A DNA stretch of 64,000 nucleotides from NCBI GenBank assembly GCA_030068145.1, contig JAPJBO010000074.1:391633-455632 (forward strand), given 5' to 3'. Shown here piece after piece: positions 25,080 through 64,000 of the stretch. The position numbers were made by a program, and so were the translations under genes. Numbering within the stretch: the first letter of the stretch is position 1; each line of letters starts with the position of its first letter. The stretch comes from Diplonema papillatum (lineage: Eukaryota > Euglenozoa > Diplonemea > Diplonemida > Diplonemidae). Under the pieces are notes generated by a model. The model was not told the origin of the DNA. It made no database searches and was given only the letters and a program-made list of their open reading frames with translations.

Positions 25080-27075
25080 CCCCCGGGGGGGGGGGGGGGG
25101 GGGGGGGGGGCGTGCAAGTAATTGCACGACGCACTTGTCATGCACAATCACTTGTTATATAACAAGTGACCTAACAAGTGAAAATGTATAACAAGTAATC
25201 ACTTGTTATATAACAAGTGATTGCTTGTTATAACAAGTGATTGGTTGCAATTTCATGAGGAACCTGGAGTTTGCACCTACCTACGAGAGAAAATCACGTG
25301 ATCTGCAAGACACAAGGCTCCACCTGGTCCAGACAAAAATATCGGGGAGTATCGGGGAGTTTCGGGGAAATTCGGGGTATTTCCTTTGTGGCAACCACTT
25401 TCCCTGCAGCCGGCCTTGGCGAAGGCGGGGAGGGGGCTACGATAGTATGGCCCTACCTTGCGCAGAGCGGTCCCGTGTTTGGCTATGCCCCGAAGACGAA
25501 GATAGAGGCTGAGAAGGAAGGGCAGACTCGGAGGTACAGGTTGATACGGTTTGACACAGGTAGCGACAGGATCCGCTGCGGCAAGGAGAGCAGGAACCGT
25601 TCCACCAGAGGTCGTGCGGGCACAGAGACGATGCTTGTGCTCGAGTCGCAGCTGGGGACGAACAGGCACGCCTTCATGATGAGGTCTGGGGGATGGACGT
25701 ATTTTCCACGTCTGGGGAGGCAAGGATCGGACGTGGGACGCCTGGTGGGACGCCTTCGAAGACGGCACCTCCGGCAAGAAGGGGCAGAAGAGGGTAAATT
25801 AAGTGGGCGGCGGAGACCCAGTGCATGGAGGTGGCGTGCCCAGGCCACCACCAAGGACAAGAGAGTGTACACGAGACATCACAAAGTGAAATGCGAAGAG
25901 TGCAAGCATCGGCAAGCGTCGGTAGCGCGCTGCTGCCGTGGCACACCACGCGGCAGGGGACGGCCTCGCCGTGAAGTATTGCGAGAAGCACAGGATGGCG
26001 CAGTGCGAGACGTGGTCTTGAGAATGGTACGCGGAACCCCAGATGACTTCCAGACCTCGACGAACTTCATTCTCATGGCCCGGGTGTGGAACCTTTTCCC
26101 CGTCCCGATGCACGACTTGAACGCCTTGACGACATCCTCCTGTAGGCGGCGGTCGCTCGGTGGCAGCTTGAATACCAAGCGCTTGCCCCCCAGCGTTGTA
26201 CTTGTGGACACCGAAGGGGAAGCTCGTCTTTACCCTTTAGATCTGCTTGAACCGAGCACGGCGATCGTCAGAGAGGCCGGGCACGGTGTCCAGTGAAAAC
26301 GGCTCGAATTGCCTCGGCGAATTGCCCTTCCGGCTCTCCCCAAGAAGAAGACCCCTCCGCTTTCACGATGCTCCCAGTCGCAAGCACGATGGAACTTCCG
26401 CACTGCGTTGCTCAGTTCCGCCCGCTCTCGGCCACGCAGTTTTTCAGCCCATCCCTCGAATTTGTGCGGCGGTGCTGTTCTGCTGCAGCTGACATCCGGA
26501 CTCTTGCAGTACTCTGACTGCACGCAGTCAATTTTAGGTGCAGTTCTGGTGTAATCTTGCGGATTTTGGTTACCCCTGGTGCCGAAAACCTGTGCATGCT
26601 ACCTCTACACTACCGTTACACTACCGTTACGCTACCGCTACGCTACCGTTACGCACCCGGGACCAGCTTGATTGAGAAGGCATAGGATGGTTTTCAACAC
26701 TATTCTGGTCACCGCCTTGGGCGAAAATGTCAAAAAACACGAAATCACGCTCGTTTGGCTGGGCCGTGGTACCCCGGCAGGGGTTTTTCACACGACAAGA
26801 AGCTTCGACCCACAGAAGAACCCCGAATGAGCGGTTCGGGTGTGCAAATGCCAAGCGTGCTTACAGCAACCGTTTGTTTGCCAAAAGCCTAGTGTCTTGC
26901 AGATCACGTGACTTTCTCTCGTAGGTACAGCCCAGGTTCCTTATGAAATTGCAACCAAACACTTGTTATAACAAGCAATCACTTGTTACATCACTTGTTA
27001 GAAATGTAACCAGTTATGTCCCAAAAAAAAACAGCTAACAAGTGCGTCGTGTGGGGAAACGTCCCCCCCCCCCGG
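25080..27075. mobile_element. 2-kb element with about 190-bp terminal inverted repeats
   Basis: The left end (about 25080-25325) and the right end (about 26885-27075) are inverted copies. Both run inward from a G/C homopolymer through ACGACGCACTTG, ATTGCTTGTTATAACAAGTG, TTGGTTGCAATTTCAT, AGGAACCTGG, CCTACGAGAGAAA and TCACGTGATCTGCAAGACAC. The ends contain nested palindromes such as ATCACTTGTTATATAACAAG. Interior open frames (341 codons plus, 110 codons minus at 25879-26211) show no transposase motif I recognise, so it is probably non-autonomous or decayed. Target duplication cannot be read because of the flanking homopolymers. Confidence 0.8.
26600..26655 (+). repeat. short tandem repeat, about 11-bp unit
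   Basis: About five copies of a CTACCGTTACG-like unit inside the 25-27 kb element. Confidence 0.7.
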
Positions 27076-31855: not shown

Positions 31856-32985
<1,130 letters not shown>

Positions 32986-46252: not shown

Positions 46253-49156
46253 TCAAACAATGGCATACTTGTAGGATTGCTCTGCACAGCAGAACATGGA
46301 GACGAAAAGGTAGGCAACTAGAAGCAGGCCAACACTGCTCACTGCGGCTAGTAGAATGGAGATGACCGAGACGTAGCGGAAATTCGTGGCGAGCTTTCTT
46401 TGAAGTGCACTCATGCACGGGTTCACATATGAGTTCCCAACCGTGCAATTCTTTGGACAATAGCTGTTCTGTACATTAAAGCAGGCTTTTTGGAATCCCG
46501 AGCAATGAACTTCAGCCTGAAATTGACACACAAGATCGGGCTTTTTACGGCAGGCAGTCTTCCATAAGTCCCCAAGCGTCTCCATCCACTCAAGGTCAAC
46601 TACAAAATCCCCAACGTTGATGTTGATGGCTTCCCAGGATTCGGCATTGGGCGTGTTGTCTGCTGCCTCAACCGTGGCCGCTGCGCTGTTTGCCATCTGG
46701 TGCACGATGACTGCCATTACCATGAGCAGAATTGTGGTGAGCACCAACAACACGACCGAGACCCCAAGTTGGCACTTTCCTCGCGCAGCCGCCGCGCTAA
46801 AAATAAAGAAGCTCACAATGAGGACACCTCCTGCTGCCAAGCCGGTGACCAGAATAATCATGTGCCCCCAGATTTCCATCTCGGCCTGTAAGAAGAGAAA
46901 CACTGCAAACCCTGCAACCGCCACAGAGCCCCAAACCATGAGAGCAAACAGGACCATGATTGCCAGTCGAACAGCTGAATTGCATTGCGTGTATTTCCCC
47001 TCAAGCTCAGAGTGGTTGAGTGTCTTCGAGCATGTTTTGTACAACATGACTATCATCCCGAGGAGGATTCCGGCGAGCCCAATGAAAAGAGCGACTGCCC
47101 CGCCACCCAGTTGCTCAGAGACTTGATCGACGTTGACGGGGTTCGAGTCGAACGTATCTGTACCTTCTGGAATAAAGACCTCTGCCTTCTGAGGATTCGT
47201 GGTGTAGGACATGTTGCACTCATTTGGGTCACCATCGCAAAGTGTGCATATGCTGTACCCGCCGCGACCGTGCTCGTTGGTCTTTCCAAAAAAACGGCGG
47301 CAGGACCCCAGGGTTTTGTCCCAGTAGCACTTGCTCGTCAGGCAAGCTACTTCATTAGTCGCCAAGCAGTCATTGTCAGTTCCACGACCGTATCGCGTGT
47401 TGCAATCGTAACGGACGCACGCGCTCAAATCTTCAGATCCTTGCGTAATACGTACTCTGAAGTCTGCTGATGTCCTCATTGCGGTGGATAGCAGCCAATT
47501 ATGGCTGCGCACGGTGTCTGCAATTTCGGCTCGGATGAGGTAATCGCCTTCTACAGCCTGCGCACCGCCTGGCCATCCACAAGCTTCTGCTCCGGGTTCG
47601 CCTCCCGACGGGCAGGCACCAACCGTTAACTCAGTTGTGTCCGAGGTGCCTGACTTGATTGGACCTGCTGACGTTCCCGCTGGACCATTTACACAGGACC
47701 AAGATACGTTGAATGCGGGGCCCCATAGAGAACTCTTCGTCGTGAACCAGTAAAAATCTTGAATGGCAGGGTTGATGTGTAGTCGACTGACGTCAGCTGG
47801 GGCCATGACAAGAGTCTCCGATGCAACCGGGCAGCGTGGAAGGGACAGATCTTTCAGGTTTTCGTACAGAGCGTTTTGCAGTAACCCTTCGCGACAGACA
47901 TCGCACAGTTTTGGCATGCCTGAGGACCGCATCAGGCAGCTTTGATCTCCTTTCTCGCCTTTGTTTGGCCGCACAAAATTTGAGTATGAGCACGTTTCGA
48001 ACGTGGAAGACGGCTTGCCGAGACCCTGCCACGTCGGAAACCAATCTGACCACGGCACTTCGGTATCTTTTTTCGCGCAGTTGATCAGACTCAGTGCTGA
48101 CTCTTCATCAAAACCGTAGTCGTACTCGTCGGAGAGTCCACCCGAGGCATGTCCAGTTTCGTGTATGAGAACCTTTTCAAAGTTCTTTCCGTTGTACAGG
48201 TATGCCTGTCCGCCGCCTCCTGCCCCTCCGTATTCGTCGTCGTTGACAATGGTGATGATCAGATCCGCCGCTGGAGCGTACGACGCCAAGGCGGCGGTCT
48301 CGGCATAGTTGCAAGCAAGCATTCGCTTTATGGTTGTACCGTAGCTGCACTGTAAGCGATTTGGTTTGGGATTGGCAATACTGCCCCTCGGGTCTGGGTG
48401 ATTCGCGCCATCCTGAGGCGATTCGTCCCATACGCTGAATACGTTAATGTATGTCCAATATCGGTTCCACGGTTGTGCATGCAGAGGTACGTTGTTGAGA
48501 GTGATAGACTCCTCTGCTGTCACGGTGCCTGACAGAAAGCGTACGGCTCTCTGAACATCAGCATCGAAGTCAGACCGCTGTGTGTAGCATCCTGCTAAGA
48601 AGACCAAGTTGAAGGTATCGCCGACGGGACCAACCTTTTGCACGGTGGTCAGCTGTGGCTCAAAGGAAAAGGAAGGGTCGCTCAACGTTGCTGCCCCTCG
48701 TGCAAATCGATGGGTCTTTCGGTTTCGAGGTCCGAGCACAGACCATGCGGGGCTGCTGTGTTCCACGATGTGAATGTCGACCACGGACATCGGCAGAACA
48801 AAAGGTGCATATGTCACATCTGACTTCACTGTGGTTCCGTTGATGTCCATTCTAATGTCGTCCCAATGTTCGTGAACCATCGCAGACGGCTCGCTGAAAT
48901 GTACAGCCGCAGTTGGTGCCTCGTCCTCAAATTGCTTCACTTGCGACTTTGCATGGTGGACAGTAAAAATAGTCGTATTCAAGTGTTTGCGATGTTTTTC
49001 TCGTACATGACTGGCTGGTGCGGTACTGATCAACCGTTCTCGAACTACGGACACGCCGAGTTCTCTGTGAACCTTGAACAACACCCATCGCATTTCGGTC
49101 TCACAAGTGGAGGCGGTCAAACACAGGGTGCACAGCATGATGCCTTCGAAGCGCAT
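46253..49156 (-). CDS. M64-family metallopeptidase fused to a tetraspanin-like membrane region
   Basis: 967 residues from ATG 49154-49156; the frame runs 83 codons further to ATG 49403-49405, but the inner start is followed by a hydrophobic, Cys-containing signal-peptide-like segment (MRFEGIMLCTLCLTASTC). Residues about 175-430 carry the M64 (IgA-peptidase-like) core: the zinc site HETGH at 332-336, the GGLSDEYDYG extension supplying the third-ligand region, and a Cys-bracketed SCLMRSSGMPKLCDVC. A Cys-rich ectodomain follows (about 450-680), then TM1 at about 685-706 and four more hydrophobic helices at about 730-756, 766-788, 797-819 and 929-956. A 110-residue Cys-rich loop precedes the last, an arrangement like tetraspanins but without a clear CCG. 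Predicted surface or endosomal membrane zinc protease; substrate unknown. Intronless. Confidence 0.85.
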   Translation of the reverse strand: MRFEGIMLCTLCLTASTCETEMRWVLFKVHRELGVSVVRERLISTAPASHVREKHRKHLNTTIFTVHHAKSQVKQFEDEAPTAAVHFSEPSAMVHEHWDDIRMDINGTTVKSDVTYAPFVLPMSVVDIHIVEHSSPAWSVLGPRNRKTHRFARGAATLSDPSFSFEPQLTTVQKVGPVGDTFNLVFLAGCYTQRSDFDADVQRAVRFLSGTVTAEESITLNNVPLHAQPWNRYWTYINVFSVWDESPQDGANHPDPRGSIANPKPNRLQCSYGTTIKRMLACNYAETAALASYAPAADLIITIVNDDEYGGAGGGGQAYLYNGKNFEKVLIHETGHASGGLSDEYDYGFDEESALSLINCAKKDTEVPWSDWFPTWQGLGKPSSTFETCSYSNFVRPNKGEKGDQSCLMRSSGMPKLCDVCREGLLQNALYENLKDLSLPRCPVASETLVMAPADVSRLHINPAIQDFYWFTTKSSLWGPAFNVSWSCVNGPAGTSAGPIKSGTSDTTELTVGACPSGGEPGAEACGWPGGAQAVEGDYLIRAEIADTVRSHNWLLSTAMRTSADFRVRITQGSEDLSACVRYDCNTRYGRGTDNDCLATNEVACLTSKCYWDKTLGSCRRFFGKTNEHGRGGYSICTLCDGDPNECNMSYTTNPQKAEVFIPEGTDTFDSNPVNVDQVSEQLGGGAVALFIGLAGILLGMIVMLYKTCSKTLNHSELEGKYTQCNSAVRLAIMVLFALMVWGSVAVAGFAVFLFLQAEMEIWGHMIILVTGLAAGGVLIVSFFIFSAAAARGKCQLGVSVVLLVLTTILLMVMAVIVHQMANSAAATVEAADNTPNAESWEAININVGDFVVDLEWMETLGDLWKTACRKKPDLVCQFQAEVHCSGFQKACFNVQNSYCPKNCTVGNSYVNPCMSALQRKLATNFRYVSVISILLAAVSSVGLLLVAYLFVSMFCCAEQSYKYAIV

Positions 49157-49539
49157 TTTTTTCGGAACGAGCGGTTTTGAATTTTGCAACCTTGGTGTTT
49201 GTCGTTCGAATAAATTAGCCTTACACATGCAAATGTCCATACAATTGAGCCCATACGAAGGTTTGCTCTGAACTGAAATAGTTTGGACCGAGGTGAAGGA
49301 ACAGCCTCTCTGTCGGGGCCAGCTCTGTGCAACAGCTCTGGATGCGACCACCCTCTTAGCATGGTCAGAGGACATTCTCGTGGAATGCTTCCTGTAAGAC
49401 CTCAAGTCTACCTTCGATCTGGAACATTGGAAGGTGATGGTGGACCGCGTCAGCGGGATCGAACCATGCCAGCCGCCATACCTGGTCGAGACGCTGGCGA
49501 CAAGGCGAAACTCTCGGTGCGCATCCTCCGGCTACGGGG
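49157..49539. other. upstream region of the M64 gene
   Basis: Holds the optional 83-codon N-terminal extension. On the minus strand GGTTCGATCCCGC near 49455 resembles a tRNA B box, but no tRNA fold was found. Confidence 0.35.
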
Positions 49540-49879: not shown

Positions 49880-51175
49880 ACTATGTGCGTGGTTCGGGGC
49901 ACTTTACAAGTTGCAGGGCGCCGGGCGTGGAAGGCGCCAGGTGTGGATTGAGAAGGACGGGAATCGATCCCCTGGGTGGTGGCATTTTCCCGCCGGACCA
50001 CGCGGCAGGCCTTTTTCGACGAATTTTAGCTCGCGATCAGCTGCAATGAAGAGATCCGTGAAAAATAGACCCGAAAACGAAAAAGTATGCGCGTGGTTCG
50101 TGGTTCCGTGCATGATGCAGGGCCCCGGGTGTGGAAACCACCAGGTTGGATCGAGCAAGACGGGTATCGACCCCCTGGTTGGTAACTTTTTCCCGCTGGT
50201 CCATGTAGCTGACCTTTTTCGACAAATTTTTGCTCGCAATCAGCTCCGATGAAAAGAACTGTGAAAAATAGACCCGGAAACGAGGGTCCGTGCAAGATGC
50301 AGGGCACCGGGCGTGGAAACCACCGGTGTGCGGGAAGAACGGGATTCGATCCCCTGGTTGGCGACATTTTCCCGCTGGTCCACATAGCAGACCTTTTCCG
50401 ACGAATTTTTGCTTGCGAACAGCTCCGATGAAGAGATCCGTGAAAAATAGACCCGGAGACAGAAAACTATGTCGTGGTCAGTAGTTTTTACAATTTGCAG
50501 GGCACCGGGCGTAGAAACCACCAGCCTGACCAGGTGTGCATTGAACACGGACGGTATCGATCCCCTGGCTGGTGGCATTCTGTTGCTGGTCCGCGTAGCA
50601 GACCTTTGTCGACAAAGTTTTGCTCGCGATCAGCTTCGATGAAGAGATCCGTGAGAAATAGACCCGGGAATCAAACACTACGTGCGTGGTCCGTGGGTTC
50701 TTACAGGATGCAGAGCACCGGGCTTGAAAACCACCCGGTGTGCACTGAGCAGGACGGGTATCGATCCCCTGGTGGTGGCATTATGTTGCTGGTTCACGCA
50801 GCAGACCTTTTTCGACGACTTTTTGCTCGCGATCAGCTTCGATGAAGAGATCCGTGAAAAATAGACGAGGGACCATCAGTATGTGCGTGGTCCGTGGGTT
50901 CTTACAAGATGCAGAGCACCGGGCTTGGAAACCACCCGGTGTGCATTGAGCAGGACGGGTATCGATCCCCTGGTGGTGGCATTATGTTGCTGGTTCACGC
51001 AGCAGACCTTTTTCGACGAATTTTTGCTCGCGATCAGCTCTGATGAAGAGATCCGTGAAAAATAGACCAGGGACCATCCAGTATGTGCGTGGTTCGGGGG
51101 TCCTTACAAGATGCAGGCACCGGGCGTGGAAACCACACCAGGTTTGCAGTGGGAAGGACAGGAATCGATCCCTGG
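49880..51175 (-). repeat. tandem array of about 200-bp units with Pol III-like A/B boxes
   Basis: About 6.3 units; the landmark GAGATCCGTGA recurs at 50051, 50433, 50644, 50848 and 51048, with a diverged copy at about 50252, giving unit lengths of roughly 180-210. On the minus strand each unit has TGGACCAGCGG or a near variant, close to the tRNA A box TRGYNNARNGG. About 30 bases later comes GGGATCGATNCC, close to the B box GGTTCGANNCC. This suggests a tRNA-derived SINE family amplified in tandem (inference). Units also read through as short open frames, which I do not consider genes. Confidence 0.8.
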
Positions 51176-51272
51176 CCGGTTGCTTCCGGAGCGGGAGCCC
51201 AAAAAATGCTTCTTCAGCACACAGTGAACGCCAGTCTCGCTGCGACCTGGGCTGGCCTGCTAGCGAGCAGGT

Positions 51273-51450
51273 CCGACCAGGTAAAAAAACCCGCGATGCA
51301 GTGACACTACCCCCTGCAACAGGGTGGACCGCTTCGTCCGGTCGCGCCCCACCAGATGCAATGACTATTCTTGCCACCCCTTGGGCTACCTGAAAGCTCA
51401 ATTGGTGGAAGAAGTCCTGGCAGGCGGCCGAAGCGGTCCGGTCTTCACGG
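51273..51450. repeat. retroelement 3' end, left member of inverted pair
   Basis: About 178 bases matching 56616-56794 in inverted orientation with only a few differences. It is the C-terminal coding end of the retroelement (TASAACQDFFHQLSFQVAQG). The pair could be mistaken for terminal inverted repeats. Confidence 0.85.
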
Positions 51451-53448
51451 AGGGCGCTTTTGCGGGCTATTTGCCGCAACTCCGTGAGTGCTCCAGGACA
51501 CCACGCTCCGAAGGTGTCCACGACCAGCGGGACAGCGAGCCATTCCCGAGGGTTTGGCTCGTTGTCTATTATGCCGCGGTACTTGCCTTCTTTGACAGCT
51601 GTTGCGTAGGCTGTCGCCGCCCCCCCTGGCTTCTCCGCTGCCCTCTTAGCGTACTGGGGATTCGATGGCTGCAGGGGGAAGGTGACGGCGACATCTAACA
51701 CAACGGTGGTGCCGTCCCGGACATAGCTGATGTCCGGGCGCTTCCGCTCCGTGTTCGAAAACACGGGGCGCTCGACCGCCGGGGCCAGCAAGCCACGGCG
51801 GGCGAAGTCAGCGATGACGTCGCGGAGTGCATTGTGCATTCTCGTCCGGCGGCCGCCGGAGAAGCAGCTCCGCGCATGCACTCCGTCAACGTCAGCCGAG
51901 CCTGTCCCGCAAAGGCGACAGATGCTCGGCATGGGGGCGATGGGCAGCCCCAGCCGGAGCCGGATGGCCACCGCGAGCTCCGCGGGGGATAGCCACAGCT
52001 TGGGGTCTGCCTCCGCGTTGCCGTAAAGCCACGCGGACGCATGTTGGCCGGAGCAGCTTTGGATCCGCGCCCGGACTTGGACCTGCTTCAGGGCCAGCGC
52101 CGACCCTTGGAGCTGGCCTGACCTGCCCAGCTCCTCAGTCATCGAGATGATGAGGGCCTTGCGCCGCTCGTCATGAACCGTCGCGGACCACACTTTCTGT
52201 CCACGTCCCCCGTAGTTATCCCGTGCCTGCAGAGCGTTCTGGATCTTCTCCAAAACGGTTTCGAAGGGTGCAAGGCGCGGGTCATCGAGGGACGCTAGGA
52301 AAGTGTCGTCCTCGTCCAGAAGCATGGCGTGCGGCAGCACGTAGGGGGTCACCAGGGATGGAAGGCAAGCCTCGCCGTCAAAGGTGGCCGCGATATGCGC
52401 GATCGCCGCTGTGTCTGCACAGGAGTGCAGACCCAGGCCGCCTAGCCTGACGGGAAGGGAAGCCAGGGCCCAGGCGGAGGCGTCCGTCTCGATACCCGTG
52501 ATCGTCGCCAAGCAAGACTGCGTGGCCTGATCGATGCAAGCGAAGTCGAAGACGGCCCCCACAGCGCGCATGAGGTGGACGACGCTGACGAAGCCGGCGC
52601 AGAACTTCAGCAGAGTCAGAGCCACATGCGCATCCGGGAGGGAGGCTATCATCCGCATCTTCCTCTCGGCGCCTTTGACCGCTTCATCGACGAAGACACG
52701 CATCTTCTCGGGGGAACCGCAGGGGACGCCAAGGTGCTGAATCTCGTCTAGCGGACAAGTCTCGATGCCTTGCAGGGCCTCGGGGATTGTGGCGCCGGGG
52801 GCGACGGACAGCCTGCACTTCCCCCGATTCAGGCTGAGCCCGACCGCTGTCGCCCTGTCTTCGAAGTCCCGCAGCCAGCGGCCGAGGGAGTCGAGCTCCC
52901 CCCCAGCCGCCCCGTCATCGAGGAAGAACGACAGAAGGTCAAGCTCCGCCTGGCTCAGCGCCCCCTCAGGGGCGCCCCGGGTTGCCGAGGATCCTGCCGG
53001 TGGCGGCGACGCTGCTGGGTCCCCCGAGCCTGGGGCCTGCGCCGGCACTAGAGGGGTGGGCTGGCCCTCGATGGCGCCAGGAGGCTCCGGCTGACCGGAG
53101 TCCCGTGCTTGCGTCGCGGGGGCAGGATCGGCGGGCGCCTGCGACGAAGCCGCGGGGACGGGCAGCTGATCCTCGGGGCTCGGCGGAACAACGACATCGT
53201 GCAAGGCGAGGCTGAAAAGCAGCGGCCCCAAGGGGTCCCCTTGTTGGACTCCACACTCGGAGGAGATCCTCCGGTCGCCCACCACTAGCGCGGAGTGTTT
53301 CTCGTACGCTGCCAACGCGTACCCCAACAGTTGGGGGGCGTGTCGGTTGACACTGCGGATGATCGCTTCCCGCCGCAGCATATTGAAAGCGTTGGCGAAG
53401 TCGATCTGCAGTATGCCCCTGTCGGTCACGTCTCTGTCGCGGTACAGG
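51273..53448 (-). CDS. reverse transcriptase with C-terminal restriction-like endonuclease, 3' part of split gene
   Basis: The frame is open from about 53501 through the element's end and on to a stop at 50982 in flanking repeats. RT motif A is QIDFANAFN (about 53405-53379), motif B GVQQGDPLGPLLFSLAL (about 53252-53202), and motif C has the rare FLDD in place of YXDD (about 52925-52914). About 95 Pro/Ala-rich residues separate B and C, far more than usual. Downstream are the RT thumb region, a CRLCG...HARSC zinc motif (near 51900) and an endonuclease-like block with KRPDISY, VVLDVAVTF and KEGKYRG, as in R2/NeSL-type elements. Such proteins nick DNA and reverse transcribe their RNA at the nick. 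No stop lies before the shared 3' end. RT motif 1 is in the separated piece at 56399-56570. Confidence 0.85.
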
Positions 53449-53744
53449 CAGTGTGGCTCCTGCGCCAGCCGCGCCAGGCCGCGCCAGAAAACCCTGTTTT
53501 CTGGCGCGTTTGGCGCGTTTGGCGCGATTGGCGCGCCCGTAGTGTTTTTACCAGGAATTGACAACTTTTTCATTTTGGGATCATCATTCGTCCAGTTTCT
53601 CGGCGATCCCGGCGTGCGTTCCGACAATTTTTTTGTTCGATGAGAAGATCGATGGCGAAATCTTCCAGAGAACCTGTTCTCAGAGGGTGTCAGCCTATTC
53701 TGGTGCCTTCCCACACCCCCTGTCCTTCCAGAGCCACTGAAAAA

Positions 53745-54170
53745 CAAGCTTTTTCCAGGGGATCGATCCCTGCAGCCTTTTTGGACCGGTTTGGACGTGC
53801 TCGCCATGGTAATCCATGGTACCCTGCGGCAATGCAAGGCCGACGAACCACAGGGATCCACTTACGGTTCCGGGTCTATTTGGCACCGTTCTCTTCATCC
53901 GAGAAAAAATCGAGCAAAAAGTCGTCGGGAAAAAGTTGCTACGTGGACCAGCGGGAAATTGTCACCTACCTGGGGACGATTCCTGTCCTTCCCGTGGTAA
54001 ACCTGCCGCCCGGTGCTCTGCATCTTATGAGGAGTCACGAACCACACGCATACGTATGGGTCCCCGAGTCTGTTTTGAACCGTTCTCTTCATCGGAGCTG
54101 AGGGCGAGCAAAACGTCGTTGAAAAAGATCTGTTACGTGGGACCAGCGGGAAAATATCACCACAACTTTT
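53745..54170 (+). repeat. inverted relatives of the 200-bp units, inside the hAT-like element
   Basis: At least two diverged units on the plus strand, each with TGGACCAGCGG or GGGACCAGCGG (53955, 54150) and, in the first, GGGGACGATTCC 30 bases later. CGTTCTCTTCATC and GAGCAAAA(A)GTCG landmarks match the array at 49880-51175 in opposite orientation. Confidence 0.75.
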
Positions 54171-54239
54171 GCCAAACCCAGATTCCACTGTTTGTGCATT
54201 GAAAAATGGCCCGGGAAAATTATCAATTCCCCCGAGGTA

Positions 54240-56228
54240 GGGCCAAAACCCATTACAGTATGTTATCCAAACTTTGAACCCATTACGGTACATGATCCAA
54301 ACTTTGAACCCATTACGGTATGGTGCCAAACTTTGAACCCATTACGGTATGGTTTTCCAAACTTTGAACGAATTACGGTAGGTTCCAAACTTTGAAACCC
54401 ATTACGGTATGGTTTTCAAACTTTGAACCCATTACGGTATGGTTTTCAAACTTTGAACGAATTCCGGTAAGTGTAAAATTTGAGCCCAATTTCGGTACCG
54501 TTGTCAGTCGAGGTCTGCAAGTTGTTAACAACGCAGTGTAATTGGGCGACAAATTCATCTTCTGTGGTGACTCTACAGTGCCACGTCAGTGGTCGATCAG
54601 TCAGACTCTAAGGCGGACGGGTGATGGTTGCAGCTACCATGTCTTCAGTAGGCCGATCCTAAGTCATCATCCTTCTGCACCGCAGTAGCAACAGATTCAC
54701 TTTCATCTCCAATTCGGCGACCTCCGAAATCCACGTTCAACGCAAAGATGCGGCGTTAGACTACCGTCACTACGGCTCATGCTGGCCGAGCGGCTGTGTG
54801 CTGTTGCTACAGCTGTAGTAAACCTCGTGATCAGCAGGCACTGAAACCTACGGCCACGTCCGGATTGTGATTGGACCGGAAGAAGAGTCATGCTCATCGA
54901 GCTGCTTGCCACTTAGCCGCACCGTTGCGACAAATTTAAGAACAAAGTTCACAATCAGAAACGAAAGGTAAACCTGATCATTGTGGACGCATTTTGGGAA
55001 GCTTTGGAACGTTCGCGCCATTCGCAGATGATTCTGTCCATCACTTGCGTCAACAGGAAGGCAAAAAGAGAGAGATGAGGAGGAGGAAGGGTAAACTTCA
55101 TGATCAGCAGTGAAAGTTGGCAGGCACTGCCCCTACTGTAGTACGGCGACCTCGGAAGCTCAGTGGAGTACTCTTCTCCCTGTTGCGAAAGCAGGATCCC
55201 TACCGACAGCGTAGGAGAGGAATAACCACCGACGGCCCATTACAGGGGGGGGGCTAAATACAACGAGCGCCCGTTGTATTCAAAGCGTCAAGCTCAAAAT
55301 GCAGGTTCGCGGCAGAACGTGGTCTTCGAACACAACTGTTTTTCCATGCTAATCAACCGTGGGATTCTGCCCCCGTACAGAGGGAGCAGTTTTCGAGCAG
55401 CATTTGATACTTCGCAGTCGGTCTGAGTCCGCGACTCTGACTCCGCGAGCGGCAGGCCGTCACTGGATCCGGAAGTAGCAGCGGCGTTTCAGCCACAGGG
55501 TCGACTCGAGCGTGAATCGGACAAGCCGAATCGGAAGTGGACTCGTCGGGACCTCCTCCCATGAAGTCTGATGACGAGTGACGGAGGGCCCGGACCGCCG
55601 TCCGACCTGCTGGACAGGGAAGGAAGGCATTGGACCGGACCCCGGGGTGGGCGGATCGGGGGCGAGTGCGCCGCAATGGTGGTTGCCATGCACCGACTCT
55701 TCTTCAAACCCGAGCACTTCCCCTGGGGATGCATCTGTGCGAGGTCCTTCAGAAATCGAGAGGTCCAAAGCAAGCAGCCAACCTCGAGCATGTGCCAAAA
55801 GACACAAACTGGATCCATCGACGCCAACTTCACATCTATGATCTCTCTCCACGTCCGCTTCTACGTATCTCGTTGGTGTTGGGCTTATAACCTGACAGTG
55901 ACACCGAAATGCTCAAACTTGAGAGTCAAAGTTTAGAAATCATGCCGGAATTGGTTCAAATTTGGAACCTCACCGTAATGGGTTCAAAGTTTGAAAACCA
56001 TACCGTAATGGGTTCAAAGTTTGAAAACCATACCGTAATGGGTTCAAAGTTTGGGACCATACCGTAATGGGTTCAAAGTTTGGAACCTACCGTAATTCGT
56101 TCAAAGTTTGAAAATCCATACCGTAATGGGTTCAAAGTTTGGATTGACATACCGTAATGGGTTCAAAGTTCGGACCATACTGTAATTCGTTCAAAGTTTG
56201 GATAACATACTGTAATGGGTTTTGGCCC
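54240..56228. mobile_element. 1989-bp Mutator-like element with minisatellite inverted ends
   Basis: The ends GGGCCAAAACCCATTACAG...GTATGTTATC are identical inverted for at least 28 bases, flanked by a perfect 9-bp direct duplication CCCGAGGTA (54231-54239 and 56229-56237). A 9-bp duplication with long inverted ends fits the Mutator-like class. The arms (54240-54480; 55935-56228) are arrays of a 30-bp unit CCAAACTTTGAACCCATTAC.GGTATGGTTT in mirror orientation. The interior (54480-55935) has no recognisable transposase; a 130-codon minus frame at 55460-55852 is unrecognised. Confidence 0.88.
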
Positions 56229-56398
56229 CCCGAGGTACTCTTTTTGCCCCGTGCATGTGACGAGGGAGCCTAAATTTCCTTGGGGCTACAGGGTGCGCCA
56301 AACGCGCCGCGCCGCGCCAAACGCGCCAGGCTTGGCGCGCTTGGCGCGCGCCGCGCCACGCCAAACGCGCCAGGCCCCAGGAGCCACACTGGTACAGG

Positions 56399-56570
56399 GC
56401 CGCAACCCTGCGGATGGCGTGCACGCCTGCGTCGACTTGCCCACTCCGCAGGAGGACGTTCGCCCCCAGGTCCTTGATTGCCCGGTCGGATGCGAGGACC
56501 TTGCCGGCCACCCGGCGCAGAATCTCCCCACATGCAATGGGCCTGATGCCTCTTAACCAACGGGACGAAA
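56399..56570 (-). pseudogene. reverse transcriptase motif 1 region, 5' part of the split gene
   Basis: About 55 codons read RGIRPIACGEILRRVAGKVL, then an Asp/Val/Arg-rich stretch ending RRVAALY. RPIACGEILRR is the typical RT motif 1 of these elements. Its last codons CTG TAC fall in the target duplication, and the first codons of the 3' part (CGC GAC AGA GAC) continue the frame exactly. The 5' side ends at a junction with unrelated A/T-rich sequence. Confidence 0.85.
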
Positions 56571-56615
56571 AAGAGTGCCACCACCTGGACTGAATTTCTT
56601 TTTTTTTGCCAAAAA

Positions 56616-56794
56616 TAAAAAAAAACCGGACCGCTTCGGCCGCCTGCCAGGACTTCTTCCACCAATTGAGCTTTCAAGTAGCCCAGGGGGTGGCAAGAAT
56701 AGTCATTTCATCTGGCGGGGCGCGACCGGACGAAGCGGTCCACCCTGGTGCAGGGGGTAGTGTCACTGCATCGCGGGTTTTTTTACCTGGTCGG
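56616..56794 (+). pseudogene. 5'-truncated copy of the retroelement 3' end
   Basis: Plus-strand codons TASAACQDFFHQLSFQVAQG onward to SRVFLPGR match the split element at 51273-51450 almost perfectly. It is preceded by TTTTTTTTGCCAAAAATAAA and ends at CCTGGTCGG, the shared 3' terminus. It lies head to head with the larger copy. Confidence 0.88.
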
Positions 56795-57128
56795 GGGTCA
56801 TTTCCCATTATAGTACACACTTTCTTAGAGTTACCCATTATAGTACATACCTCTTAGAGTTACCCAAGATAGTACATGTTTCCTTAGAGTTGCCCATTAT
56901 AGTACATGTTTCCTTAGAGTTGCCCATTATAGTACACACACTTGAAACTCCTGGAAGGCCCCCAGAAATGCAAGAAAAATGCACAGAAACCGTAGTTTTT
57001 GCTTTTTCTTCGTTTTTTTTAGAGACCCCCCTCCCAGCCGTGGCCCAGGCACGGGCTGCTGGTTGGGTGAAATACCAAAAGAGTACGGTTTCCTGACTCG
57101 GACCTGAGTTTGTGCCCAAAACTTGAGT

Positions 57129-57876
57129 TCCAAACTTGGGTCCCAAACTTGGGTCCCAAACTTGGGTCCCAAACTTGGGTCCCAAACTTGGGTCCCAAAC
57201 TTGGGTCCCAAACTTGGGTCCCAAACTTGGGTCCCAAACTTGGGTCCCAAACTTGGGTCCCAAACTTGGGTCCCAAACTTGGGTCCCAAACTTGGGTCCC
57301 AAACTTGGGTCCCAAACTTGGGTCCCAAACTTGGGTCCCAAACTTGGGTCCCAAACTTGGGTCCCAAACTTGGGTCCCAAACTTGGGTCCCAAACTTGGG
57401 TCCCAAACTTGGGTCCCAAACTTGGGTCCCAAACTTGGGTCCCAAACTTGGGTCCCAAACTTGGGTCCCAAACTTGGGTCCCAAACTTGGGTCCCAAACT
57501 TGGGTCCCAAACTTGGGTCCCAAACTTGGGTCCCAAACTTGGGTCCCAAACTTGGGTCCCAAACTTGGGTCCCAAACTTGGGTCCCAAACTTGGGTCCCA
57601 AACTTGGGTCCCAAACTTGGGTCCCAAACTTGGGTCCCAAACTTGGGTCCCAAACTTGGGTCCCAAACTTGGGTCCCAAACTTGGGTCCCAAACTTGGGT
57701 CCCAAACTTGGGTCCCAAACTTGGGTCCCAAACTTGGGTCCCAAACTTGGGTCCCAAACTTGGGTCCCAAACTTGGGTCCCAAACTTGGGTCCCAAACTT
57801 GGGTCCCAAACTTGGGTCCCAAACTTGGGTCCCAAACTTGGGTCCCAAACTTGGGTCCCAAACTTGGGTCCCAAAC
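57129..57876. repeat. 13-bp satellite, about 57 copies
   Basis: Nearly perfect tandem AAACTTGGGTCCC. The unit is close to a palindrome (CCCAAACTTGGG). Because 13 is not a multiple of three and the unit has no stop in any frame, it creates long open frames on both strands with a 13-residue period; these are not genes. Confidence 0.97.
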
Positions 57877-58111
57877 GCGGTGCACCGTGCTGCACGCGAG
57901 GAAAACCCGGCTGAGGGGAATTGATGCCTGTTGTGTTTCAGTTTTTGATCGGCATGGCAGCAAACCTTGCCATTTTGGTCCTTGATTCGATGAGAGTCTG
58001 GATTTGCTAACCGAACCTGGTTCTGCAGAAACTTGGACACAACTTGGACTCAAAACTTGGACCCGCACTCAAGTTAGAACAAAGTACTCTTTTGGGCGAG
58101 GCGAAGTACTT

Positions 58112-59640
58112 TCTATTACTATCCCCAAACTTTTATACCATTCTATTACTATCGCAAACTTTTATACCATTCTATTACTATCCCCAAACTTTTATACCAT
58201 TCTATTACTATCGCAAACTTTTATACCATTCTATTACTATCCCCAAACTTTTATACCATTCTATTACTATCCCCAAACTTTTATACCATTCTATTACTAT
58301 CCCCAAGTTTTTATACCATTCTATTACTATCCCCAAACTTTTGTACCATTCTATTTCTATCCCCCCCCCAAATTTTTGTACCATTTGGTTGGTGTCCCAG
58401 CACTTGGCGTCAGTACCGAAAACGTTGAAGCGTTGTCCCACCGCACGAAACAAAGAGGCCCCTTTTTGCTTTGCCGCAAGTTTCTAAGCAAAGACGAAAT
58501 CTCAAACTGCCAGCACGGAGTCTAAGTGGTTTCGGTCTCTCGTTTGCGGAGTCGACGACCCCGACATTCTGTTTTGCCCCGACTCCACCCTGTGGAGGGA
58601 GCTTCCGTGGGAATCCCACTCCAATCCTGTAGTTCCGCAGTTTGACGCTAATCAGGCTCAGATACGAGTCAGTACGCGTGCACGCAGCACGGTGCTGGAT
58701 TCTGGAGTCTACGCTATATCGCCGAACAAAAGCCACTACGACTGTGCCCGGCCCAGGGTTCCACCGAAGATTTGGTCGACCGTTCAGCCACTCCGACGAC
58801 TCAGACTGGTCGCCGGCCGCTGTGAAATCCACAAATAACGCTAGAAATCATCGGTCAGTTTCTTTGGCCCACCGCAGTCGCGCTCTGCTGCACAACCCTG
58901 CCGCCCGGGCCTGCGAGTCAGCACAAACCCTTCCATGTGGGTTACCGGCTTTGGTAATTCCATTTGAGAGTTCTCGCAGAACAGGTGTCATCAGGAATGC
59001 CAGGATGTCAACTGAGTCGGCAACATCAACTCGCAGAGCTTGGCTACGTTTCGTTTACGGGCAACACGTAGTACATGCTGCGGGAATGGTTCCCAGGCTG
59101 TCAATGGGACCCAGCCCTGGAAAGCCCGCGGCTCGGGGCTGGGGATGGAAAGTGGAAAAACAGTAGAAGTGTCGGGCACCCTGGACTTGGTGACTGTTCC
59201 TAACACTGTACTAACGTAATTCAGTGACCGACTCACTGGGTGACACCAAAATGGGTTCAAAGTTTGGGAATGGGGTTCAGCTTTGGGACCGTAATGGGTT
59301 CAAGTTTTGACCATACTACAAGCCGGTCTCCTTCATGTTTGGATACCGCGTAATGGTCCACACAATGTGACACATTTACATCATGAGGCAACTTCACTTC
59401 CAAGTCGAATAGAGGCAGACTCGCACAAGGCTTTTGTGACAAGCATGTACTTGTTTTTGTACCGAGGGCTGCCAGCAATGGGTGAATTCAGTCTCCAGAG
59501 TTGCAATAGTAATAGAATGGTATAAAAGTTTGGGGATAGTAATAGAATGGAATAAAAGTTTGGGGGTAGTAATAGAATGGTATAAAAGTTTGGGGGTAGT
59601 AATAGAATGGTATAAAAGTTTGAAATAGTAATAGAATGGG
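58112..59640. mobile_element. inner foldback-like structure with second 30-bp arm family
   Basis: Left arm 58112-58375: about nine units CCCCAAACTTTTATACCATT.CTATTACTAT. Right arm 59505-59640: four to five inverted units (AATAGAATGGTATAAAAGTT.TGGGGATAGT). The interior is unique, except that 59245-59315 contains units of the Mutator-like arm type (ATGGGTTCAAAGTTTGGG). No transposase recognised. Confidence 0.75.
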
Positions 59641-59969
59641 CAAAAAAAGTTTCAAACGTCATATTTAGGACTTCACCTCCTTTTGGGCACAAACAGGAAA
59701 AGGTGCTGTTTTGGGCACAAAGTCGGGAAACGTACTGTTTTGGACCTTATCCCAGCCTCGTTTTGCCCGGGCTTCGTTCCGCCCCACAGGACAGAACAGA
59801 ACAGGATAAGAGACCGTACCAGAGCAAAACGTACTATCATGGACAACTCTAAGGAAACATGTACTATCTTGATCAACTCTAAGGAAAGATGTACTATCTT
59901 GATCAACTCTAAGGAAGTACGTGCGCTCGGCTAAGGCCGGCGCGTGGCGAGACTGGAGGCAGCAGTTAA

Positions 59970-61180
59970 AGTTCGGGGAACAGCAAAGTTCGGGCGAAGC
60001 TAAGTTCGGGCAATGCTAAGTTCTGGTGAAGCAAAGTTCGGGTGAAGCTAAGTTCGGGCGAAACAAAGTTCGGGCGAAGCAAAGTTCGGGCGAAGCTAAG
60101 TTCGGGTGAGCAAAGTTCTGGTGAAGCAAAGTTCGGGCGAAGGTGAAGCTAAGTTTGGGCGAAACAAAGTCCGGGCGAAGCTAAGTTCTGGGTGAAGCAA
60201 AGTTCGGACGTTCTGGTGAAGCTAAGATCGGGCGAAACAAAGTTCGGCGAAGCTAAGTTCGGGTGAAGCAAAGTTCGGGCGAAGCTAAGTTCTGGTGAAG
60301 CAAAGTTCGGGCGAAGCTAAGTTCGGGTGAATCAAAGTTCTGGTGAAGCTAAGTTCGGGCGAAACAAAGTTCGGGCGAAACAAAGTTCGGGCGAAGCAAA
60401 GTTCTGGGCGAAGCTAAGTTCGGATGAAGCAAAGTTCTGGTGAAGCAAAGTTCGGGCGAAACAAAGTTCTGGGGGAAGCAAAGTTCGGGCGAAGCAAAGT
60501 TCGGGCGAAGCTAAGTTCTGGTGAAGCAAAGTTCGGGCGAAGCAAAGTTCGGGTCAAGCTAAGTTCGGGCGAAACAAAGTCCGGGCGAAGCTAAGTTCTG
60601 GGGGAAGCAAAGTTCGGATGAAGCAAAGTTCTGGTGAAGCAAAGTTCGGGCGAAACAAAGTTCTGGGGGAAGCAAAGTTCGGGCGAAGCAAAGTTCGGGC
60701 GAAGCTAAGTTCTGGTGAAGCAAAGTTCGGGCGAAGCAAAGTTCGGGTCAAGCTAAGTTCGGGCGAAACAAAGTGCGGGCGAAGCTAAGTTCTGGGGGAA
60801 GCAAAGTTCGGATGAAGCAAAGTTCTGGTGAAGCAAAGTTCGGGCGAAACAAAGTTCTAGGGGAAGCAAAGTTCGGGCGAAGCAAAGTTCGGGCGAAGCT
60901 AAGTTCTGGTGAAGCAAAGTTCGGGCGAAGCAAAGTTCGGGTTAAGCTAAGTTCGGGCGAAACAAAGTCCGGGCGAAGCTAAGTTCTGGGGGAAGCAAAG
61001 TTCTGGGGGAAGCAAAGTTCGGGTGAAGCAAAGTTCTGGTGAAGCTAAGATCGGGCGAAACAAAGTTCGGGCGAAGCTAAGTTCGGGTGAAGCTAAGTTC
61101 GGGTGAAGCAAAGTTCTGGTGAAGCAAAGCTCGGGCGAAGCAAAGTTCGGGCGAAGTTCGGGCGAAGCAAAGTTCTGGTG
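59970..61180 (+). repeat. 16-bp satellite with 194-bp higher-order repeat
   Basis: Over 70 units of AAAGTTCGGGCGAAGC with variants (GCT for GCA, TCTGG for TCGGG, GGGGGAAGC). The variant GT(C/T)AAGCTAAGTTCGGGCG occurs at 60553, 60747 and 60941, exactly 194 bases apart, showing higher-order amplification. Minus-strand frames with period-16 peptides are artefacts. A short relative lies at 42905. Confidence 0.95.
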
Positions 61181-62515
61181 AACCAGGGCTGGTCGCCACA
61201 CGGTTGCCACGTGTGGCCCACATTTGCCACACGAAAATGAAAAAGTCGTGTGGCGGATGTGGCGAATTTTTTCGGTTTTTTTTCCCTCCTGAAAACCGGC
61301 CGCAATTGCCGTATAACCACCATATCCCCCTTTTTTTGTGTTTTTTTTGGAGTTTTTTTGGGATTTTTACGACAGGTACCCGATCCCAGCCAGTACAAGC
61401 TGCTTTGTGGCCCTGTACTGCAGTAACCAGTTCTGTTAACATCTGGTGAATGTCGCCGTGAAGCAACTCACTCACTCGCACAGAAAACGGGTGAAAACCC
61501 AGGTTCTTGTGTCGTTGGGATGAAAATTATGCATCGAGTGCAGGAACAGGTCCAGTTACAGGACGCCATCCAGCCTGGCGGAGTCAACTTACTCGAGGAA
61601 CAGGGACGACACTCTGAGTCTTGGGGACGTTTCTCAACCGTTGTCAGTCGGCGTTGACGCTGCTTCTGCGATGTGTGCAGCTGCAGCGGGGCCGAAACCA
61701 CGTGCAAGTTTGAGGTCGAACTACGGCAACTCGAAGTGCGGGAACAGTTGGGTATGTGCAAGCTCCGTGTGTTTACGTGCCTGGTGTGGTAACGGTCGTC
61801 GGACTCGAAGGGATGACAACCCTGCCGGAGGGGGCAACACCCCTGCCGCGGCGGCGGCGAGGAGACGACTCTCACCGCGCCAGCACCGACCGCGCGAGGG
61901 ACGAACCCCTCAGCCGGGGTTCCTGCGCGAAGCACGGCCTTCCCACGGGCAAGGAACCACCCCTCGGTGGACACCCACCCGGGCCACCGCAAGAGAGGAC
62001 AGCATCCAGCTGCCAGGGGCCAGCACGCGAGGGGATGATGCCCACTGGCCGTCGGTCACGACCATCGTTTAGCGTCCAGTTTTCAACAAAGTAGACGGAG
62101 CAGCCGCAGGCTTGCCTTTCCCGGTTGTTGAATAAGCCTTATTATTATGAGGCCGCACCACAGCCTTCGGGCGTTAGACACCCAGACACTGACACGTGAC
62201 TGAGTCACGCAGTGGTTGGCCACTGGTTGTCGTCAGGTGGGTCACTGGGTTAGTGGGTGTTCGTTGTGGACCCAATCAATGGGTCAATGCGGTATACCAC
62301 CCATTCCACGAAAAAGTGTCACAGATTTTCCGTCTGAAAAGCAGCCCGTTTTGGGTCAAAATTTTGGAATTTTTGGGAAATTTTTTTTGGGATGGAAAGA
62401 GCTATCCCTGGCGATTATGGGCAAGCAATCAGCTCGCGTGGCGACCAAAATCTGGCGTGCAGATGGACAAAAGGTCGGTTTTGGGGCTGTTTTAAAAACC
62501 CGAAAAAACGATTTC
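61181..62515. other. repeat-flanking region, no firm gene
   Basis: 61185-61265 has nested inverted GCCACACG/CGTGTGGC blocks. T tracts follow at 61275-61360. Plus-strand frames at 61640-62095 are Arg/Pro/Gly-rich and could be a remnant of a retroelement's first frame, but no motif is recognised. Nothing else is seen to 62515. Confidence 0.35.
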
Positions 62516-62518
62516 CGG

Positions 62519-62582
62519 CAGGAATCGAACCACCGACCCACAAACCCCTGTGTGGGTGTGGTAACCTCTGGACCATGGGCTA
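62519..62582 (-). ncRNA. tRNA-like sequence with intact A and B boxes, no acceptor stem
   Basis: On the minus strand TGGTCCAGAGG (A box) and GGTTCGATTCC (perfect B box) are 44 bases apart start to start, as in tRNA genes. A D-arm-like TGGT...ACCA stem and an anticodon-like ACCCACA...TGTGGGT stem are visible. The T stem is poor and the ends do not pair as an acceptor stem, so a pseudo-tRNA or a tRNA-derived SINE head is more likely than a functional gene. Confidence 0.4.
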
Positions 62583-62771
62583 AAAAAACGGCGGAAATTT
62601 TTTTGTTCACTACCGAGTGAGAATTTTTGGACTCATTTTGAGTTCTTCGCAAACCGGGCGAAATAAGCTCTGAGAGAGCAGAAATACCGTCCTGGGACAC
62701 TGGAAACGAGTAAATGACGATCTCGCACTTTCCGATAAGAATTCCAACTGAGCAGGCGCTAAAAGCGAATT

Positions 62772-63323
62772 TTGGCCCGAGTTGGGCTCCCACTACGACG
62801 GGAAACTCGCACACGCGCAATCGTCAACGGGAGGAAACTCCCGAAAATCGATCACCTCACGCGACGGGCCGAGCGTGAGATCAGGCAGATCCGCACGGCC
62901 AGCACCGCCTCCTTCGCATTGGTGCCGGGAGGACTACGACGCGTTAGCGAAGTCCGAACGGAGCTCGAATCGTCCCTGCCCGCATTGCGGAGAGGTAGCC
63001 GAGTGCCCGGTCTCGCACCTTTTCTTGGACTGCGGCCATGAGGGGACGCAAGGGAAGCGTGACCTGATGTGGGAAGTGGCCTCCCCGTTACGGCGGGAGG
63101 GTGGCCAACCGGTGTGGATACCGAGACACGAACAGCTGTGGAGATTGCTGTTCGAACACCCGGAGACGGCACTCGAGTACCTGCAAGGGACCGGACTGCT
63201 GGAGGAGTACCGGATACTCGTGCCGACCACACCCGACGAACAGCCCACCGAATCCCGCCCATCCGCCACGAGAACCGCGACACAAACACGCGAACTCGAG
63301 GCCAGCGGATTTGCACGCCCGTA
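62772..63323 (+). pseudogene. C-terminal fragment of a second non-LTR retroelement
   Basis: The frame from 62782 contains CPHCGEVAECPVSHLFLDCG, the CXXC...H...C zinc motif that closes the reverse transcriptase proteins of many non-LTR elements. It is followed by KRDLMWEVASPLR and LWRLLFEHPETALEYLQGTG. The upstream part of the domain (AEREIRQIRTASTASF) is in another frame, so a frameshift lies near 62915. The catalytic RT motifs are absent. It is a different family from the element at 51-56 kb (short CPHC motif, opposite orientation, no endonuclease block). Confidence 0.75.
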
Positions 63324-63769
63324 ATCGGACTCGGCCCCGACTCAACCACCGCATACCGGGCCCCGCCTCGTCCGTCGGAGGGACAACCCCCCCGGCCCAC
63401 GAGAGCGCGTCCGAGGAACAGTCACGACCGTGACCGCGAGACGGCCGACCCCCGACGTCGAAGCAACCTCGAAGAGCGACGAAACGAAGGCAAAGCGAAG
63501 CGAAGTACAAATGGAGAACGAGAGTAGGAAGCTAGAGAATTCTACTCCGGCACCTTGCACTTGACACTTTGAACCAAGAAAGTAGAAAGAGGAGCAGAGG
63601 CATTACTAGCGAAAAGCGAATTGATTTGCCCAGTACGTATAGGTGCCTCAAGCATCGCAAGCAAAACTGAGGTCCGATGCTCACCCGAGAAGGTACGGCT
63701 CGGAGGAGACAGCATTGAAACATGAAAAGCTGCGCGCCCTGACCACGCCCTCGGACTTGGAGTAGGACC

Positions 63770-63935
63770 TCAAACTTTTACGTGAACCGAAAACCGTTAA
63801 CAGAAAGAGAACCAATTTACGTAAACCGAAAACCATTACCAGAAAGCGAACCCAATAACGAGAACCAAGAACCGTAGCCAGAAGGAAAAACAATTTACGT
63901 GAAACAAAAAACCGATAAACGAACAAGTAGTAGTC
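63770..63935 (+). repeat. degenerate tandem repeat, about 35-bp unit
   Basis: Four to five imperfect units of TTTACGTGAACCGAAAACCG then TTAACAGAAAGAGAACCAA. Confidence 0.75.
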
Positions 63936-64000
63936 ATCACTCCATCACAAACAACACAACGGAGTAAATGGTGGCACAAAGAACCACTGTACGCTTGCCC

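Follow-up and report, generated by a model that had tools for sequence, protein, structure and literature searches.

A probable three-layer transposon nest in Diplonema papillatum: an R2-like LINE fragment, an inverted-repeat transposon with 7-bp target duplications and a foldback element

The final 64 kb of contig C74 (JAPJBO010000074.1) of Diplonema papillatum, the whole stretch analysed and here called the window, contains three transposable elements one inside another: a fragment of an R2-like long interspersed nuclear element (LINE), a terminal inverted repeat (TIR) element of the CAGTGTGGC family inserted in it (the insert), and a foldback element inserted in that TIR element. We hold this nest, with its layers in that order, to be very probably correct, a confidence that covers the nest only and not the superfamily assignments. 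The three layers, both target-site duplications, the uninterrupted LINE at the first site and, in a relative, the undivided target of the second are seen directly. The nest is ordinary in kind and its layers are well resolved. It supplies precisely delimited ends, target duplications and empty sites for two families of transposons, in a genome rich in near-identical open-frame hAT and R2-like copies. A sequence-only reading had described a recent-looking insertion of a transposon into a retroelement, marked by a perfect target duplication and ordering the layers of repeats, and our analysis supports this description.

The insert occupies 53449..56391 on the plus strand, 2943 bp as found. Its left TIR lies at 53449..53462 (plus strand, CAGTGTGGCTCCTG) and its right TIR at 56378..56391 (minus strand, CAGGAGCCACACTG, the reverse complement of CAGTGTGGCTCCTG); the inverted ends are perfect over 14 bp. 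Two 7-bp copies of GTACAGG flank it, at 53442..53448 and 56392..56398. These ends and this duplication agree with the sequence-only reading, which had also held that removing the insert with one copy of the duplication rejoins the LINE frame. The frame stays open to either side, and in all 11 fetched LINE copies CCCTGTAC runs straight into CGCGACAG at the insertion point (a TAC/CGC junction) with nothing between, so the extra coding sequence that would have told against an insertion was found in none.

The 2943 bp taken as one transposon proved right as to the outer ends and wrong as to the content, which is two elements. A foldback element of 1989 bp (54240..56228), with ends GGGCCAAAACCCATTAC and inverted arms of 30-bp repeats, interrupts the insert. 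The arms are tandem arrays at 54247..54469 (plus strand) and, inverted, at 55926..56221 (minus strand), and a 9-bp target duplication, CCCGAGGTA, stands on either side at 54231..54239 and 56229..56237. The 948-bp relative L019 matches the insert over its initial 789 and its final 165 bases, and 9 bp occur twice at the break. The undivided target is present in another relative, L025; the other printed copies differ there by at least one base. Subtracting the nested element and one 9-bp copy leaves an insert of 945 bp, which in this form is 94.8–97.6% identical to 13 of 26 relatives, picked for near-full length.

A scan of the whole window for inverted ends exact over 10 bp, flanked by direct duplications exact over 7–10 bp, found four elements, two of them the insert and its nested element; a blind scan of 50,000–64,000 with the same criteria returned these two only. 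The control, 20 shuffles of the window within 300-bp blocks (which destroy tandem repeats), gave 0 matches. The region is rich in repeats and the right edge of the window is also the end of the contig, features that would suit junctions made by misassembly or rearrangement and not by transposition, but with exact duplications at both layers, no such inverted-end and duplication pair in the 20 shuffles and an uninterrupted LINE in 11/11 fetched copies we consider that origin highly improbable.

In the very probable sequence of events, the 5′-truncated copy of a young R2-like LINE was present first. Its reverse transcriptase region was then entered by a cut-and-paste transposon of 945 bp bearing CAGTGTGGCTCCTG ends, which created the GTACAGG duplication of 7 bp. 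Later the 1989-bp foldback element, presumably moved by a transposase of the Mutator-like element (MULE) type, entered that transposon and created the 9-bp CCCGAGGTA duplication.

The host LINE is in two parts on the minus strand. The 3′ part (51273..53447) encodes reverse transcriptase from motif A onward and, read by eye in the translation, a CCHC motif followed by a PD-type restriction-like endonuclease pattern, for which there was no model match. It matches RVT_1 at E 9.7e-6, below the curated cut-off. Against the PDB it matches the R2 retrotransposon proteins 9nl3, 9dou and 9nl2 (best E 3.1e-7), with no other match at E up to 1. On these sequence resemblances the host fragment is R2-like, with an R2-type reverse transcriptase. 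The 5′ part (56392..56568) has lost 8 nt at 56550/56551 and 24 nt near 56433. Both missing segments are present in 11/11 fetched copies, and the sole substitution of the window's 5′ part is also found in two of the 11 (C2 and C1589).

The genome searched comprises 271 Mb in 2910 contigs. With 382 aa of the LINE as query, 108 matches were scored among 2922 candidates. None of the 108 has an internal stop, 32 lie in open frames of at least 2000 aa (counted manually), and the top score is common to 15 other places. The family is abundant and young, and by this comparison the window copy is a 5′-truncated fragment and not a whole gene. Nor is 51273 the LINE 3′ end, because shared sequence extends below it in four of five fetched 3′ stretches (the fifth, on C762, lacks this end). 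Compared with three fetched copies, the 3′ part is identical at 2175/2175 bp in two and at 2174/2175 in the third. The absence of any substitution between it and two of these copies makes the layers look young, although such identity could also arise by gene conversion or collapsed assembly.

What had been read as an interrupted gene is thus a truncated fragment with two private deletions, and it would not have been a complete gene even without the transposon. The accompanying statement that neither half has a stop or frameshift fails only at the 5′ edge: the 24-nt deletion is in frame, and the 8-nt deletion shifts the frame with a stub of just 18 nt (56551–56568) upstream of it. A second LINE fragment, inverted, lies nearby on the plus strand (56622..56794; 173 bp, 167/173 identical to 51273–51445). 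This plus-strand copy and the minus-strand 51273–51445, two pieces of one LINE, are arranged head to head across a T/A-rich joint, and the plus-strand fragment ends where the minus-strand fragment runs on.

Had the insert been unique, its reading as a transposon would have suffered. The 14-bp end, at up to one mismatch, has 492 matches in the genome against 77 for a reversed-pattern control. One hundred of the 492 were listed and 40 stretches were fetched, covering part of the listed places. They gave 28 TIR pairs at up to one mismatch, reduced to 27 (the window included) when the outer pair of L024, which spans two elements, was dropped. Copies with 7–8 bp duplications had been anticipated. 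The duplication is exactly 7 bp in 20 of the 27 pairs, 7 bp with one mismatch in two, 7 bp with a one-base indel in L028 and 8 bp in one, and is absent from three. L039, a pair outside the 27 with more diverged ends, also has an exact 7-bp duplication. Some of the pairs are not independent: L016, L020, L027, L028, L029 and L036 have long flanks in common, and L018 agrees with L025, as L026 does with L032, in the 10 bp printed to the left and to the right. Collapsed to 20 independent sites, the counts are 14 exact at 7 bp, two with one mismatch, one of 8 bp and three with none. As a control, left flanks were compared with the right flanks of other copies, and 12/702 comparisons were exact at 7 bp, most of them presumably contributed by the copies with common flanks.

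The window holds a second empty site. A separate TIR element, flanked by the 9-bp duplication CGTCAGCTG, lies at 31875..32959; it is a copy of the repeat that hosts the six insert copies with long shared flanks. The left and right flanks of one of these, L020, align with it at 92 and 94%, overlapping by 7 bp at 32822–32828, which is the empty CAGTGTGGC-family target and supports the 7-bp duplication of the family. In L020, L027, L028 and L036 the shared sequence stops at the end of the carrier element and gives way to different sequence; in the remaining two loci that end falls outside the 200 bp examined. In these six loci the insert therefore appears to have travelled as a passenger of another transposon. 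Site-specific, Dada-like insertion, raised by the site CTCGAGC in all six, was rejected: the flanks are copies of one insert-carrying repeat, so the six count as one event. The interior of the element at 31875–32959 has a 6-bp period.

Other features concern the insert itself. The motifs GGCGCG and CGCGCC crowd its ends (53449–53558 and 56284–56391), with 16 in about 220 bp against 0.86 per kb window-wide, and are possible transposase binding sites. A tandem array of about 200-bp units adjoining the LINE (50105–51180) matches the interior of the insert at 72–85%, and L017 has copies of that interior at a spacing of about 230 bp.

Which transposase moves the CAGTGTGGC family is a separate question. 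Elements of the hAT superfamily have short inverted ends of CAGNG type, CAGTG ends being usual, and the insert has ends of this kind (CAGTGTGGCTCCTG). We regard it as probable, and as the most likely superfamily reading, that the insert is non-autonomous and is mobilised by a transposase of the hAT type that leaves 7-bp duplications. The majority of the 27 pairs have no room for a transposase gene, and the open frames listed in the longer copies (L013, L017, L030 and L032) reach 266 aa. Of 851 candidates for the hAT transposase domain 150 were scored as matches, many of them lying in long open frames, and several hAT copies are near-identical. Given these many matches, and none for the P-type domain in a search without a working control, the best guess is a 7-bp hAT. 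Duplications of 5, 6 and 7 bp are described as hAT variants; families of the 7-bp form, named hAT7, are described in rust fungi (PMC12730594). The insert family resembles hAT7 in its 7-bp duplications, in a genome where hAT domains are plentiful, and differs in that no transposase is tied to it. A reworded literature text search found no further report of hAT elements with 7-bp duplications. The transposase of the insert family, with its CAGTGTGGCTCC ends, would reveal if hATs of the 7-bp kind occur outside the rust fungi in which they were described.

Several results weigh against a 7-bp hAT. The usual hAT duplication is 8 bp, a length seen in one of the 27 pairs against exactly 7 bp in 20; L009, L013 and L019 have no duplication, and three more diverged pairs outside the 27 (two at L034, one at L046) have no exact 7-bp match. 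No autonomous CAGTGTGGC element was found, the 10 frames scanned near single ends (loci L034–L048) yielding no transposase. The five local hAT copies tested, of two families, point to the longer duplication: among four two-ended copies of a 904-aa family, read by eye from printed flanks, two have exactly 8 bp, one 8 bp with a mismatch and one exactly 7 bp, and the one copy of a 942-aa family has exactly 8 bp at a low-complexity site. Finally, the search for the P-type domain PF21787, with 0 matches of 9 candidates, had no working control, since none of 14 control genomes gave a match.

The ends of local hAT genes were examined at 30 of the 150 scored loci and at a small number of others. The families that could be delimited (904, 942 and 691 aa) have ends different from the insert's; for the 691-aa family the 5′ end and duplication were looked for and not found. 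That the 904-aa family makes 7-bp duplications had been suggested by one copy and was dropped when three further two-ended copies showed mostly 8. Scattered matches to CAGTGTGGC ends at up to two mismatches occur in 14 of 30 loci near hAT genes (L049–L078), and we read them as chance because they lie away from the ends of the delimited families. CAGTG ends alone are insufficient for a hAT label, and duplication length separates the insert family from the few local hATs tested. The term hAT-like in the sequence-only reading rests on the CAGTG ends and is unproven, given 7-bp duplications where 8 bp is usual and no transposase found.

It is unlikely that the family belongs instead to KDZ (Kyakuja-like), to a Dada-like group or to an undescribed superfamily. 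Kyakuja elements have 7-bp duplications and CA..TG termini (PMC12730594) and Dada elements 6–7 bp duplications (PMC3706591), lengths that would fit; but Kyakuja and the U1 and U6 Dada families are described there as being without TIRs, where the insert family has at least 14 bp, and Dada targets small RNA genes, whereas the target sequences of the insert family vary (these were not compared with RNA genes). Similarly improbable, in our judgement, is an undescribed or unassigned transposase, neither hAT nor P, that makes 7-bp duplications.

We give an equally low probability to the P superfamily, of the Galileo/1360 kind. Galileo makes 7-bp, sometimes 8-bp, duplications (PMC2775673 and PMC4168063), and the insert family, mostly 7 bp with one 8-bp case, resembles it in this and falls within the 7–8 bp expected of P elements. 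Its end sequence differs from Galileo's, however, and by eye the listed 7-bp sites show no GTANTAC consensus. PF21787 had no match in the genome, though no control gave one either, and hAT domains are plentiful. CAGTG ends, too, are usual for hAT. A hAT-type transposase making 7-bp duplications is therefore preferred.

The nested element also belongs to a family. Its end GGGCCAAAACCCATTACAGTA has 173 genome matches at up to two mismatches, with 0 for the control; GGGCCAAAACCC represents the ends of the family. Of 10 pairs, six have exact 9-bp duplications, three exact 10-bp and one none, and two of the 9-bp pairs (L123 and L125) share flanks and are not independent. The CCCGAGGTA duplication has the length of about 9 bp expected of MULE/Mutator elements, and by this length and its ends the nested element appears MULE-like. 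A Pfam scan of two of its frames gave no match. In duplication length, GGG..CCC ends and repeat-built arms it resembles Tm1, a Mutator/Foldback family of root-knot nematodes that has 9-bp duplications and inverted arms of 13–15 bp tandem repeats (PMC3169594). It differs in its 30-bp repeats and symmetric GGG..CCC ends, and no transposase was found in the two frames scanned. At G000:C55 a CAGTGTGGC end (435636) lies 655 bp from a nested-family copy (436291–438160), perhaps a second CAGTGTGGC/foldback nest.

Elsewhere in the window, the scan found an element-like inverted-end pair of 1602 bp at 25302–26903 with a palindromic 8-bp duplication, TCACGTGA. A single open frame of 1092 aa at 46253–49531 (minus strand) joins M64 peptidase and tetraspanin domains, an unusual pairing. 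Just beyond the nest, at 57119–57876, a 13-bp unit, AAACTTGGGTCCC, is repeated in 58 copies with 99% matches. An outer inverted pair of 30-bp tandem arrays (56804–56936 and 59831–59916, 88%) encloses an inner pair (58111–58364 and 59506–59639, 95%). These nested pairs at 56804–59916, whose ends were not found in the 50,000–64,000 scan, are perhaps further foldback elements.

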